Shown: positions 39,119 to 44,993 of the stretch, piece after piece
How positions within the stretch are numbered: the first letter of the stretch is position 1
Layout of the letters: each line of letters opens with the position of its first letter
NCBI GenBank assembly: GCA_009885805.1
Contig: VFJZ01000047.1
Span: 1 to 64,000 of the forward strand
Direction of reading: 5' to 3'
DNA from: Actinomycetota bacterium
GTDB taxonomy: Bacteria; Actinomycetota; Thermoleophilia; Gaiellales; F1-60-MAGs149
Length of the DNA stretch: 64,000 bases
The notes under the pieces: model-generated
The model's input: the letters and a program-made list of their open reading frames with translations, nothing else
What the model was told of the DNA's origin: nothing
Database searches by the model: none
Translations under genes and position numbers: made by a program

Positions 39119-41203
39119 ATGCGATCTCTTTTCTCCCCCGGCCGCCTCGCACGAGCCTCGGCCGAACACCCATGGCGCACCGTCGCCGTCTGGTCGGTCG
39201 CGCTGGTCGCCTCGATCGCCATCATCGCCACGCTTCTGGCGGGTGCGTTGACCACCGACCAGGGCTTCGTCTCGAACCCGGAGTCCGAGCGCGCCAGGGC
39301 CGCAATCGAAGATCGGCAGGGCAGCGCCGAGCGCGTCGTCGAGACCGTCGTCATCCAGCCCGCCTCGGCGGCCGCGCAGGCCGCCGTGATCGGCGCCGTG
39401 CAGGGCCTCGACACGGTCGCCGCCGTCCAACGAGGGCCGTCGTCGCCCTCGTCGAGCCTGGTGCAGATCGTGATGAAGGGCGACCGCGAGCAGGCCGGCA
39501 AGGACGTCGCTGCGGTGATCGCGGCCGCGCAGGCCGCTGCCGCCCAGTCCAACGCCACCGCTCGCTTCGCCGGTCCCGCCTCGATCGACGTCGACTTCCA
39601 GCACATCGCCGAGAAGGATCTCCAGACCGGCGAGGCGATCGGCATCCCGGTGGCGCTGGTGATCCTGCTGATCGTGTTCGGCGCGTTCGTCTCCGCACTG
39701 CTGCCGCTGATGCTGGCCGGCGTCGCGATCGTCGTCTCGCTCGCTCTGACGGCGCTCCTCGGACAGGTTTTCGAGCTGTCCTTCTTCGTCACCAACATGA
39801 TCACGATGATGGGCCTCGCCGTCGGCATCGACTACGTGCTGTTCATCGTCTCGCGCTACCGCGAGGAGCGCCTGAAGGGTCTCGAGCGGATCGCGGCGAT
39901 CGAGCGGGCGGGATCGACCGCGAGCCGGGCCGTCCTCTTCTCCGGCGTCGCCGTCGTGGTGGCGTTGCTCGGCCTGCTGATCGTGCCGACGACGATCTTC
40001 ATCTCCCTCGGCGCCGGCGCGATCCTGGTCGTGCTGTGCGCGATCGCCGCGGCCCTGACGCTGCTTCCCGCCGTGCTCGCCCTGCTCGGCGACCGCATCG
40101 ACCGCGGCCAGGTCGGCCGGCTGCTCCCGCGCCGCTTCCGCCGATCCGCGGGCGAGCCCGGGCGCGGCTTCTGGCCGCGCGCAGTCGCCGCCGTCATGCG
40201 CCGGCCCGTGGCGTGGCTGCTCGCGACGACGGCCGTGCTCGCCGTCGCCGCCGTGCCCTACTTCTCGATCTCGACCGGCGCCGCCGGCATCGAGACGCTG
40301 CCCACGTCCGTCGAGTCACGCCAGGCGTTCGACGTGCTCGCCGCCGAGTTCGAGGTCGGCGGCATCGCCCCGGCCCGGATCGCGGTGGCGGACGCCGCGG
40401 AGGCCGATCGCATCACCACGGCGATCGCCGGCGACTCTCGCTTCGGCGTCCCCGTCCTGACGGACGGCGTCCTCGACGTGCCGGTCAACGCGCCCTCGAC
40501 GAGCGACGCGGCCGTCGCGGCCGTCCGTCACCTGCGTACCGTCAGCGACAGCCCGGTCGGCGGCGAGACGTCATTGAACGCCGACTACTTCGACATCGTC
40601 GACCAGTTCCTGCCGATCGTGATCGGACTCGTCCTGGCACTGTCGTTCGTGGTGCTGCTGATCGCCTTCCGGTCGCTGGTCGTTCCGGTCGTCGCAATCG
40701 CCATGAACATCCTCAGCGTTGGCGCCGCCTACGGCGTGCTGGTACTGGTGACGCAGAAGGGCTACGGCGCCGATCTGCTCGGCTTCACGCAGGCACCGAC
40801 CGTCGACGCCTGGATTCCCCTGTTCCTGTTCAGCGTCCTGTTCGGCCTCTCGATGGACTACCACGTGTTCCTCCTGTCGCGGATCCGCGAGCGCTACCTC
40901 GAGACCGGCGACACGGCTGACTCCATCTCGTTCGGCATCACCTCGAGCGCGCGGCTGATCACCGGCGCCGCGCTGATCATGGTCGCCGTCTTCGGCGGCT
41001 TCGCGATGGGCGACCTGGTGATGTTCCAGCAGATGGGCTTCGGTCTCGCTGTCGCCGTGCTCGTCGACGCGACGCTGGTACGGACGATCCTGGTGCCCGC
41101 GACCATGAAGCTGCTGGGCCGTTGGAACTGGTATCTACCGCGCCGGCTCGGGTGGCTGCCGAACGTCGACGTCGAAGGTGCGGCGGTCGGCGTGCGTCAG
41201 TAG
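39119..41203 (+). CDS. MMPL-family RND exporter
   Basis: A 694-residue exporter of the MmpL/HAE type with two repeats of a periplasmic domain and a five- to six-helix membrane bundle. Both proton-relay sites are present: AVGIDYVLFIVSRYREE and LSMDYHVFLLSR. Related proteins export lipids, siderophores or drugs. GGAG lies about 7 bases before the ATG. TetR control is inferred from the neighbouring gene. The stop overlaps the convergent gene by 7 bases. Confidence 0.88.
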   Translation: MRSLFSPGRLARASAEHPWRTVAVWSVALVASIAIIATLLAGALTTDQGFVSNPESERARAAIEDRQGSAERVVETVVIQPASAAAQAAVIGAVQGLDTVAAVQRGPSSPSSSLVQIVMKGDREQAGKDVAAVIAAAQAAAAQSNATARFAGPASIDVDFQHIAEKDLQTGEAIGIPVALVILLIVFGAFVSALLPLMLAGVAIVVSLALTALLGQVFELSFFVTNMITMMGLAVGIDYVLFIVSRYREERLKGLERIAAIERAGSTASRAVLFSGVAVVVALLGLLIVPTTIFISLGAGAILVVLCAIAAALTLLPAVLALLGDRIDRGQVGRLLPRRFRRSAGEPGRGFWPRAVAAVMRRPVAWLLATTAVLAVAAVPYFSISTGAAGIETLPTSVESRQAFDVLAAEFEVGGIAPARIAVADAAEADRITTAIAGDSRFGVPVLTDGVLDVPVNAPSTSDAAVAAVRHLRTVSDSPVGGETSLNADYFDIVDQFLPIVIGLVLALSFVVLLIAFRSLVVPVVAIAMNILSVGAAYGVLVLVTQKGYGADLLGFTQAPTVDAWIPLFLFSVLFGLSMDYHVFLLSRIRERYLETGDTADSISFGITSSARLITGAALIMVAVFGGFAMGDLVMFQQMGFGLAVAVLVDATLVRTILVPATMKLLGRWNWYLPRRLGWLPNVDVEGAAVGVRQ

Positions 41204-43125
41204 ACCGCGACCGTGGTGCCGACCGTCGCAAAGGCATGGACGGTCGGCGCCTCGGGTGCCGGGATCCAGACGCTGCCGTGGCTGGCCGGGAACGTCGGCA
41301 CGTCGGCGTACTCGTGGAGCCCGTAGCCGGCGCTGAAGTAGCTGACCGATGGCACCCAGATCTGGAACGGGTGAGACCAGTCCCGAGCCTCGCTGCGGTA
41401 AATCCGGTAGGTGCCGAGCGGCGTCGTGAATCCTGGCTTCCCCGTCGAGGTGTGGATCGCGCGCACGACCTTGCCGGCATCGACGAGCAGGACGACACCC
41501 TTCCGGCGGTGCACCTCGATGCGGCGGCCGCCGGCGACCGTCGGCACCGGTGCGGTCGCATCCGTCAGCGCCGCCCGCGTCGCGGGCCCGGTGAAGCCGT
41601 CGCGTTCAAGGCCGGTCCACGACTGGAACGCCATGACCGCCTGGCGTGTGCGGTAGTCGTAGCGGCCCGTCGCCGTCCCGGACGGCAGGTACCGCAGTTC
41701 GATCAGCCGCTGCTGCACGTCGGCGACGTTCCCGGCCAGGACCCCGGGCCCCGGACGAGGGACGACGACGGTCGCGGGCGGATCGACGCTGGTCTCGCGC
41801 CAGGAGGCGGCGCTGCCCTGCGACCCGACCAGGACCCGCACCGAGTCGACGAAGGTGAACTGATCGGCGGTCATGACGACCTGCGCGATGCGTGCGGCGA
41901 TCGCCGTCTGGTCCTCACCCGCGGCAAAGGCGTCGGACAGGTCGATCGTCGCGACGCTCCCACGCAGCCGCACCTCGAGCAGGGTCGTCGTGCGCGGGAT
42001 GACGGTGCGTACGTCGAGGCGCGTCTTCTCACCGCCCGTCGGCCCGATCAGCAGGCGCCGGATCGCCTCGCGGACGGTCGCCTCCGGCGCAAGGCCGGCG
42101 GGGAGCGTCCGCTGCCGCGGAGCGATCTGCAGGCCGCGGATGAAGTAGACGCGGACGTTACGGTCCGTGGTGCCGACGGGCGGGGCGCCGGCGGGGACGT
42201 CGGCGAGCGTCTCGGGGGCCACGGCCTTGACCTGATCCGCGAACGCCTGCGTGATCAGGCCCCGTGCGAGCAGGAAGTCGGCTGCCGTCCGCCGCACGGG
42301 GCGCCGTCGTCGGAGCACGGCGTCGTTCAGCGCGCGCACCCGTGAGGTCGCGAGCACGGCGGAGACGCCGTCGATCTCCGCCTGCAACCCGGGCGCCGCG
42401 TCGGCGGCGGCCTGGCGGAGGACGACGAAGCCGCGAGCGGGCGTGCCCGTGAACGCACCCTTGTCGTCACGGAGCACCACGAGGCCGAGACGCGCGGGCT
42501 CCGGATCGGTCGCCAGCGCATGGATGCAGTGCGCACGCCCGTCCCGGATCGGCGAGTAGCGGCTGGCGGTCGGCTGGACCTCGAGGCCGCGGAACAGGGC
42601 GCCGTACTCGCGTCCGAGAACGACGAGGCCGTCGGGCCCGAGCAGGTGCCCTCGCGTCGCCGCGTAGACGATCTGCTTCGGGTGCCGTCGGAGGCTGGCG
42701 AGCGATCGCAGCCGCAGGCGGCTGACGATCTGCCTCGTGCAGGCGACGCGCCCGGCCGTGGACAACGGCGCCGGCGTGGTGGCGATCAGTCCGAGCGGAG
42801 CGTACGCCTCACGAATCCCGGCGAGGACGGTCGCGAGATCGGTCACTGGCAGCCGGTCGAGGATCGCCAGGTGCGCCGACGCCGTCGACTCGGGGTAGAG
42901 GTCGATCGTCCCCGCGCTGATCGCGGCGTGCGCCACCGCACTCGACGCGGCCCGCCGGTAGACCACCTCGTGACCCTTCGCCTCCAGCGCGAGACCGTAC
43001 ACCTGGCCGACGATCGCGCTCTCGGACGTGCCGAGGTCCGCGATCACCAGCCTGGCAGCGTGAGCCGGCGGCGTCGCGATGACAACGGCTGCAGCCGCCA
43101 CCAGCGCGCGAATGACGAGTCGCAT
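41197..43125 (-). CDS. Secreted OpuAC-GerMN-peptidoglycan-binding-YkuD protein
   Basis: A 642-residue exported protein (signal peptide about 1-23) with four parts: an OpuAC-type glycine-betaine-binding domain (about 24-290), a GerMN domain (about 310-450), a peptidoglycan-binding domain (about 478-530, VQQRLIELRYLPSG) and a C-terminal YkuD domain (about 540-642). YkuD domains are L,D-transpeptidases, but the nucleophile site reads SHGS (615-618) instead of SHGC, followed by VW instead of VR. His604 remains. The catalytic Cys is thus absent. The architecture links solute sensing or binding to the cell wall; function is inferred. Confidence 0.75.
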   Translation of the reverse strand: MRLVIRALVAAAAVVIATPPAHAARLVIADLGTSESAIVGQVYGLALEAKGHEVVYRRAASSAVAHAAISAGTIDLYPESTASAHLAILDRLPVTDLATVLAGIREAYAPLGLIATTPAPLSTAGRVACTRQIVSRLRLRSLASLRRHPKQIVYAATRGHLLGPDGLVVLGREYGALFRGLEVQPTASRYSPIRDGRAHCIHALATDPEPARLGLVVLRDDKGAFTGTPARGFVVLRQAAADAAPGLQAEIDGVSAVLATSRVRALNDAVLRRRRPVRRTAADFLLARGLITQAFADQVKAVAPETLADVPAGAPPVGTTDRNVRVYFIRGLQIAPRQRTLPAGLAPEATVREAIRRLLIGPTGGEKTRLDVRTVIPRTTTLLEVRLRGSVATIDLSDAFAAGEDQTAIAARIAQVVMTADQFTFVDSVRVLVGSQGSAASWRETSVDPPATVVVPRPGPGVLAGNVADVQQRLIELRYLPSGTATGRYDYRTRQAVMAFQSWTGLERDGFTGPATRAALTDATAPVPTVAGGRRIEVHRRKGVVLLVDAGKVVRAIHTSTGKPGFTTPLGTYRIYRSEARDWSHPFQIWVPSVSYFSAGYGLHEYADVPTFPASHGSVWIPAPEAPTVHAFATVGTTVAVY

Positions 43126-43154
43126 CGGGCAAGTATAGGGCGCTGCGCGGCGAG

Positions 43155-44993
43155 CTACTCGACGGTGACGGTCTTCGCCAGGTTCCGCGGCTTGTCGATG
43201 TCGAGACCGAGTTCGCGCGCGATGTGGTACGCGAGGAGCTGCAGCGGGATGACGGCCAGGATGGGCTCGAGCTCGGGCAGCGTCCGCGGCACCTCGATCA
43301 CGTGCTGGGCGTGCTCGTGGATGTTGGTGTTGCCCTCGGTGACGACGGCGATGACGGCTGCGCCGCGCGCCTTCACCTCCTGCAGGTTCGAGACGATCTT
43401 CTCGTACACGTGCGAGTCGGTGGCGACGGCGACCACCGGCGTCTCATCCGTCAGCAGCGCGATCGGACCGTGCTTCATCTCGCCGGCGGCGTAGGCGTCG
43501 GTCGGGATGTAGGACAGCTCCTTCAGCTTCAGAGCTCCCTCCTGGCAGATCGGCAGACCGATGTGGCGCCCGAGGAAGAGAAAGAAGCGATGGGTGCTGA
43601 ACTCGCGGGCGAGCTGTTCGACCTTCGCGTGCATCGCGGCGTCGTCGAGCAGCCGCTGCACGAGTTCCGGCAGCCGTTCGAGCTCGCGACCGATCTCGGC
43701 GATGCGGGCCGGTTCGAGCCGCCAGCGAAGCTGTGCCAACCGCAGCGCGAACAGCGTCATCAGCGCGATCTGCGCAGTGAAGCACTTCGACGAGCCGACG
43801 CTGATCTCGAGCCCGGCACGCGTGTAGAGGACGCCGTCCGCAACGCGCGTCACGGCGCTTCCCATGACGTTCGTGATCGCCACGACCCTGGCGCCGCGCT
43901 CGCGCGCCAGCTGCACCGCCGCCAACGTGTCCGCCGTCTCGCCCGACTGGGAGATCGCGAGGACGAGCGTCCGCGGGTCGAACACGGCCTTGCGGTAGCG
44001 CCACTCCGACGCGACGTCAGCCTCGGTCGCGACTCCCGCCCACTCCTCGATCAGGTACCGACCGACGAGTCCCGCGTGCAGCGCCGTGCCGCAGCCGACG
44101 ATCAGGACGCGGTCGATCTCGGCGAGTTCGGCGTCGGACAGGCCGATGCCGTCGAGGTGCAGCTCGCCATCGCGGTACCGCTCGCCGATCGTATCGGCGA
44201 TGGCGCGTGGCTGCTCGTGGATCTCCTTCAGCATGAAGGTCTCGTAGCCGCCCTTCTCGGCGACCTCGATCGTCGCGTCCGCCTCCTCCACGGCGCGCTC
44301 GCGCGCGGGCCCGCCGGCGATCGGCCAGAAACGGGCGCCGTCGGGGCGAAGATCGACGATCTCGCCCTCCTCGACGTGCTGCACCTGGCGCGTCTGCTCG
44401 AGGAACGCAGGCAGGAACGAGGCGATGTACATCTCGCCGTCGCCCTTGCCGACGACGAGCGGCGGCCAGGCGAGCCGGGCCGCAACGATTCGGTCCGGCT
44501 CGTCCCGCGCCAGCGCGAGGAAGGCGAAGTGGCCGTCCAGGCGCGGGTAGACCTTCCGCACGGCCTCGACGAGGTCGCCCTCGTAGGCGTCGGCGAGCAG
44601 GTGGACGAGCGCCTCGGTGTCGGTATCCGAGCTGAGCGTGTGGCCACCCGCGACCACCTCGGCGCGCAAGTCGACGTAGTTCTCGACGATCCCGTTCATG
44701 AGGACCGCGATGCGGCCGTCGTTCGACAGGAACGGATGCGCATTGCGGTCGAAGACGCCACCGTGCGTGGCCCACCGGGTGTGCCCCATACCGAGCGTCG
44801 CCGGCGACCCGTTATCCCCGACGAGCCGACGGAGGTCGGCGACCTTGCCGACGGTGCGGTCGCGCACGAGCGCACCATCCTCGAGCAACACGATGCCAGC
44901 CGAGTCGTAGCCCCGGTACTCGAGCCGTTCGAGTCCGTCGAGAATCAGGCCCTTGCAGGCGCGCGGGCCGGTGTAGCCGATGATGCCGCACAT
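43155..44993 (-). CDS. glmS: Glutamine-fructose-6-phosphate aminotransferase
   Basis: A 612-residue enzyme making glucosamine-6-phosphate. It has the N-terminal nucleophile Cys2 (MCGIIGYTG), the glutamine-binding WATHGG, and two SIS domains in the isomerase half with SQSGETADT, ending in NLAKTVTVE. It supplies UDP-GlcNAc for the cell wall with glmM, which lies directly upstream (8-base gap). The start has GAGGGA ahead of it. Confidence 0.97.
   Translation of the reverse strand: MCGIIGYTGPRACKGLILDGLERLEYRGYDSAGIVLLEDGALVRDRTVGKVADLRRLVGDNGSPATLGMGHTRWATHGGVFDRNAHPFLSNDGRIAVLMNGIVENYVDLRAEVVAGGHTLSSDTDTEALVHLLADAYEGDLVEAVRKVYPRLDGHFAFLALARDEPDRIVAARLAWPPLVVGKGDGEMYIASFLPAFLEQTRQVQHVEEGEIVDLRPDGARFWPIAGGPARERAVEEADATIEVAEKGGYETFMLKEIHEQPRAIADTIGERYRDGELHLDGIGLSDAELAEIDRVLIVGCGTALHAGLVGRYLIEEWAGVATEADVASEWRYRKAVFDPRTLVLAISQSGETADTLAAVQLARERGARVVAITNVMGSAVTRVADGVLYTRAGLEISVGSSKCFTAQIALMTLFALRLAQLRWRLEPARIAEIGRELERLPELVQRLLDDAAMHAKVEQLAREFSTHRFFLFLGRHIGLPICQEGALKLKELSYIPTDAYAAGEMKHGPIALLTDETPVVAVATDSHVYEKIVSNLQEVKARGAAVIAVVTEGNTNIHEHAQHVIEVPRTLPELEPILAVIPLQLLAYHIARELGLDIDKPRNLAKTVTVE

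Follow-up and report, generated by a model that had tools for sequence, protein, structure and literature searches.

The window analysed here comprises 64,000 nucleotides of contig VFJZ01000047.1 from a draft genome of an Actinomycetota bacterium. It contains a gene on the minus strand (41197–43125) for a four-domain protein that has lost the functional residues of both its YkuD domain and its OpuAC domain. We consider it probable, at roughly 60%, that the product is a pseudo-L,D-transpeptidase that is secreted, bound to peptidoglycan and fused to a binding-protein fold blind to its ligand.

The open reading frame starts with ATG and encodes 642 amino acids, followed by a stop codon. Its first 23 residues (43057–43125; MRLVIRALVAAAAVVIATPPAHA) resemble a signal peptide and end in an AxA motif. 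They are followed by an OpuAC domain (residues 25–285, positions 42271–43053), which was assigned by Pfam (E = 3.3e-24) and by a fold model. The remainder of the protein comprises a Germane (GerMN) domain (residues 326–434, 41824–42150; E = 9.4e-15, 55.7 bits against a cut-off of 23), a PG_binding_1 domain (residues 466–520, 41566–41730; E = 6.8e-14, 52.2 bits against 23) and a YkuD domain (residues 534–641, 41203–41526; E = 1.2e-10, 42.6 bits against 23.4). All four Pfam matches exceed the curated cut-offs, in agreement with the initial annotation, which had placed these domains in one protein. The G+C content at third codon positions is about 0.9 (0.89–0.92) across all four domains, the same as in the neighbouring genes. 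Whole-protein searches found no second protein with the four domains in 297 genomes of the phylum (E ≤ 1e-62) or in 399 genomes of the class (E ≤ 1e-50), and the architecture was also absent from a scan of genome contigs, which reaches close relatives only. The OpuAC domain is the only one in its genome.

The active site of the YkuD domain (LHEYADVPTFPASHGSVWIP) is built up from His604 (41314–41316), the residues EYADVPTFPA and the motif Ser615-His616-Gly617-Ser618-Val619-Trp620. His604, the conserved active-site histidine, and Ser615-His616-Gly617 are retained; these columns of the YkuD alignment are invariant, including in our protein. Ser618 (codon AGC, 41272–41274) occupies the position of the catalytic cysteine, and Trp620 (codon TGG, 41266–41268) that of the conserved arginine two residues further on. 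The reading SHGSVW, with VW in place of VR, is therefore as first reported, against SHGC[VIAM]R in the relatives. We examined about 75–80 other YkuD homologues, which come from the same genome, from its family, its order and its class, and from named genomes of the Solirubrobacterales. All have cysteine at position 618, including six further YkuD matches in the same genome. The named Solirubrobacterales relatives indicate that the class is probably Thermoleophilia. Of the 77 distinct stretches in which the motif could be read, 76 have cysteine followed by [VIAM]R; the lone exception (TTV) is a match further downstream in a protein with SHGCVR. As the only cysteines of the whole protein, Cys129 and Cys200, lie in the OpuAC domain, no other residue of the YkuD part could stand in for the missing one, and rescue by another cysteine is ruled out. 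A single sequencing error, which had been named as a possible explanation, is insufficient because C618S and R620W affect two codons; it is likewise ruled out by the many differences in the OpuAC pocket described below.

To compare the domains we defined columns as conserved if they were at least 85% conserved among 31 relatives. The YkuD domain keeps 36 of 42 such columns, the lowest rank among 32 sequences. The six losses are K578S, S582D, A594V, A602G, C618S and R620W. PG_binding keeps 17 of 17 columns (tested over residues 460–524) and Germane 9 of 11.

The consequence of an exchange of cysteine for serine is known from engineered LdtMt2 C354S, which formed no product with muropeptide monomers and was not acylated by the β-lactams tested (PMC11410929, PMC6391942). 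The identical change in the same motif has been solved for this variant (PDB-entry 8PXY); in contrast to our protein, it is laboratory-made and its other domains differ. The arginine at the +2 position faces the substrate groove in many L,D-transpeptidases and is an alanine in DpaA (PMC10653827). Since LdtMt2 C354S is inactive, it is unlikely, by analogy, that the YkuD domain works as a serine transpeptidase. The initial annotation had offered both a pseudoenzyme and a serine variant. The loss of the cysteine and of the +2 arginine, while the fold, the histidine and the SHG motif remain, supports the former, together with the inactivation of LdtMt2 by the same exchange; both that experiment and the absence of an arginine at position 620 speak against the latter. 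Two pattern scans, one over 399 genomes of the class and one over 150 of the phylum, yielded no other YkuD domain of a serine or threonine type. Because not all possible codon choices are matched by the patterns, this null result is compatible with rare variants. The matches (L046 and L112 to L116) were rejected as chance hits to a NuoD-like protein or to short frames. Our searches of a paper library on YkuD domains combined with OpuAC, on YkuD pseudoenzymes and on loss or replacement of the cysteine yielded no natural case without cysteine. Elsewhere in the same genome (contig C64, loci L004 and L007; 128079–128174 and 129381–129701) a short stretch, SHGCARxPMWAADWLYRQSPVGETVYVYR, repeats the C-terminal end of a neighbouring YkuD protein at a distance of approximately 1.2 kb and could represent a gene fragment that remained after a duplication.

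The ligand pocket of the OpuAC domain is lost as well. EgtUC holds the quaternary amine with Phe293, Tyr341, Tyr419, Tyr443 and Asn339, and Lys242, Thr296, Arg379 and Glu375 contact the remainder of the ligand (PMC9732360). According to our alignment, Phe293 (Tyr63 in AfProX) is replaced by Ser80 (42886–42888), Tyr419 by Leu204 (42514–42516) and Tyr443 by Ala230 (42436–42438). Tyr341 corresponds to Gly125, a position at which most transporter-type relatives have asparagine rather than tyrosine, and Asn339 at the base of the cage corresponds to Thr123. The equivalents of Lys242, Thr296, Arg379 and Glu375 are Leu31, Ser83, Gly163 and Gly159. Thus the aromatic cage is substituted at all four of its positions, as are its base and three more ligand-contacting positions; most transporter-type relatives retain K, Y, T, N/D, R, F and Y/F at the corresponding sites. 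With the aromatic cage lost, binding of glycine betaine or choline by the known mechanism is not expected from the sequence, and the role in binding these compounds that had been implied for the protein finds no support. No genes for a permease or ATPase of an ATP-binding cassette transporter adjoin the four-domain gene; the wider genome was not searched for them. In four other genomes of the same order (G021, G018, G027 and G030) we observed single open reading frames of about 830–1110 amino acids with two tandem OpuAC domains (L047, L048, L049 and L050). Several hundred N-terminal residues precede these domains, and a fused permease is a guess as to their nature.

In spite of these substitutions both halves of the protein are predicted to fold. 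The model of the OpuAC domain has a predicted local distance difference test score (pLDDT) of 94.7 and an intact fold, with template modelling scores of about 0.75–0.90 to solved quaternary-amine binding proteins. It shares the whole fold with the substrate-binding domains of EgtU, ProX and OpuBC (Pfam OpuAC, cluster F-III), from which it differs in that the cage aromatics and charged contacts are all replaced and in that it is fused to a wall module. The model of the Germane, PG_binding_1 and YkuD part has a mean pLDDT of 88.3 with one low-confidence linker. Its top structural match is the L,D-transpeptidase of PDB-entry 4lpq from Xylanimonas cellulosilytica. Both have the YkuD fold, the histidine equivalent to His604, the SHG motif and the order PG_binding_1 followed by YkuD. 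Unlike that type, our protein carries serine for cysteine, tryptophan for the +2 arginine and the additional Germane and OpuAC domains.

The closest parallels to the architecture are pairs of separate genes. In three genomes of another family (G106, G129 and G161) a cysteine-type gene with Germane, PG_binding_1 and YkuD domains lies directly beside an OpuAC-like gene on the same strand. The L,D-transpeptidase gene of G106 contains SHGCVR and is divided between two contigs whose ends have exactly the same 56 bases; the likely start of its OpuAC gene lies 19 bases past the L,D-transpeptidase stop codon, and the cage is intact. In G129 the two genes overlap by 8 bases and in G161 they are adjacent. 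Like our protein, the OpuAC-like proteins of both genomes have lost the cage. Among the 399 class genomes this cage-less type was found only in G129 and G161, all other matches being of the transporter type or having an intact cage. The run in G129 (L125:3535–9470) comprises a family-2 glycosyltransferase, the L,D-transpeptidase, the cage-less OpuAC-like protein, a membrane protein resembling LPG_synthase_TM (a weak match below the family cut-off) and a DUF2079 protein. That in G161 (L124:5272–8385) comprises the L,D-transpeptidase, the cage-less OpuAC-like protein and an LPG_synthase_TM-like membrane protein. These gene runs suggest that the OpuAC-like protein belongs to wall or glycan biology rather than to osmolyte uptake.

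Because the same domains are encoded by neighbouring genes elsewhere in the class, the four-domain gene looks like a fusion of that pair and, judged from sequence, is one in a single sampled genome. In the separate pairs the L,D-transpeptidase gene comes first and its cysteine is intact, whereas the order in the fusion is reversed, so that a rearrangement is required. The L,D-transpeptidase part is the sister of that of G106 (Shimodaira–Hasegawa approximate likelihood-ratio support of 90), with end branches of 0.52 for our protein and 0.20 for G106. The OpuAC domain falls into a group of family f5 (support 99/99), within which the OpuAC domains linked to L,D-transpeptidases are grouped weakly (48/62).

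Relative rates were compared as changes away from a 70% consensus in our protein and in its G106 sister, using five sign tests on small numbers without correction. The YkuD domain has 8 changes against 1 in G106 (p = 0.039) and the OpuAC domain 23 against 6 (p = 0.002). PG_binding has one change in each protein, and PG_binding and YkuD together have 9 against 2 (p = 0.065). By these counts both "active" domains changed faster than in the G106 sister, and there is no such excess in the wall-binding domain.

Based on these observations we propose the following role for the protein. It would be exported by means of its signal-peptide-like start and attached to the wall by the PG_binding_1 domain. 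The groove of the catalytically dead YkuD domain may still hold stem peptides. The protein could bind the wall in a structural or regulatory role, for example by shielding the sites used by the cell's other, cysteine-type L,D-transpeptidases or by competing for those sites, and would act neither as an enzyme nor as a betaine receptor. If this is true, pseudo-L,D-transpeptidases would form an extra regulatory layer on 3-3 cross-linking. That OpuAC folds are repeatedly paired with L,D-transpeptidases, with loss of the cage, hints that binding-protein folds have been recruited for wall sensing or scaffolding in the class. Several points weigh against the proposed role. The four-domain gene is known from one genome only. 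Production, export and need of the protein are putative, and peptidoglycan binding by the PG_binding domain is assumed from its family. The relative rates are based on small counts, of which that for YkuD is marginal (p = 0.039 among five uncorrected tests). Early decay, too, would account for the faster change at the two functional sites.

Such decay is the main rival explanation. A newly fused or acquired gene would have lost its use, leaving both active sites unconstrained while the frame is still unbroken. Both functional sites are indeed gone, the two domains that contain them are both accelerated, the gene is absent from the nearest genome, and OpuAC is otherwise absent from its own genome. 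An open frame is weak evidence in G+C-rich DNA, in which long antisense reading frames stay open too. We nevertheless regard decay as rather unlikely, as 642 codons are free of stops, four Pfam domains remain above their cut-offs, PG_binding is unchanged, third-codon G+C is about 0.9 as in the neighbours, and the predicted folds survive the substitutions (pLDDT 94.7 and 88.3). A trivial origin in a chimeric contig or in base errors is very improbable. The genome is a draft in 101 contigs with an estimated contamination of 3.3%, but the gene lies inside a block that is conserved on both sides in the nearest genome, its frame is continuous, and two motif codons as well as eight pocket positions are substituted.

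The remaining alternatives assign a new function to one or both halves. Ser618 and His604 might form the nucleophile of a different reaction, such as hydrolysis of peptidoglycan stems or of β-lactams. His604 and SHG are retained, and the YkuD/YafK scaffold permits serine-dependent chemistry, since the YafK protein Lpg1514 turns over β-lactams by means of Ser132 (PMC13400389). Moreover, the YkuD-type amidase DpaA, like our protein, also lacks the +2 arginine (PMC10653827). These members of the superfamily have changed active sites, but Lpg1514 uses a different serine, and it, DpaA and the other YafK hydrolases keep the canonical cysteine. Given also that LdtMt2 C354S is inactive and unacylated and that no second serine-type YkuD domain emerged from the two scans, we consider a re-purposed serine enzyme very improbable. 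The OpuAC part could instead sense a new ligand other than a quaternary amine, such as a wall glycan or peptide, and steer the wall-binding module, which would be compatible with the pseudo-L,D-transpeptidase reading. Three other genomes have OpuAC-like genes that adjoin cysteine-type L,D-transpeptidase genes; two of the three OpuAC-like proteins are cage-less, and the gene of one of these two lies amid glycosyltransferase and membrane-protein genes. The ligand is hypothetical, however, the cage-less type was found only in one genus and in our protein, and the tree joins the latter to the G129 and G161 proteins weakly (48/62), so that this possibility is a doubtful one. More speculative still is a wider scheme in which OpuAC-type folds, whether adjacent to L,D-transpeptidases or fused to them, constitute a lineage of wall-linked receptors that traded betaine binding for a wall-derived ligand. 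Here, the enzyme half would have become a non-catalytic reader of stem peptides and the fusion a one-protein wall sensor.

The four-domain gene is located between glmS (43155–44993), which lies upstream on the same strand, and a convergent gene for an MMPL-like transporter (39119–41203, plus strand), with which its stop end overlaps by 7 bases. The nearest genome, G001, encodes a GlmS that is 80% identical and shares the block acpS, Nix/TetR, MMPL, glmS, glmM and rpsI. In that genome the ends of the MMPL gene and glmS abut and the four-domain gene is absent between them; in genomes of genus g4, acpS directly follows glmS. Given its absence from this site in G001, the gene was most simply gained in the present lineage, as judged from gene order; alternatively, it may have been lost in G001. 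The stop codon of glmS precedes the start codon of the four-domain gene by 29 bases. A scan for sigma-70 promoters found none, and no −35 element was found for the hexamer TATACT (43132–43137, minus strand), which is located six bases 5' of the ATG and is a weak candidate for a −10 element. A leaderless transcript could start from this element, or the gene could be transcribed by read-through from glmS.

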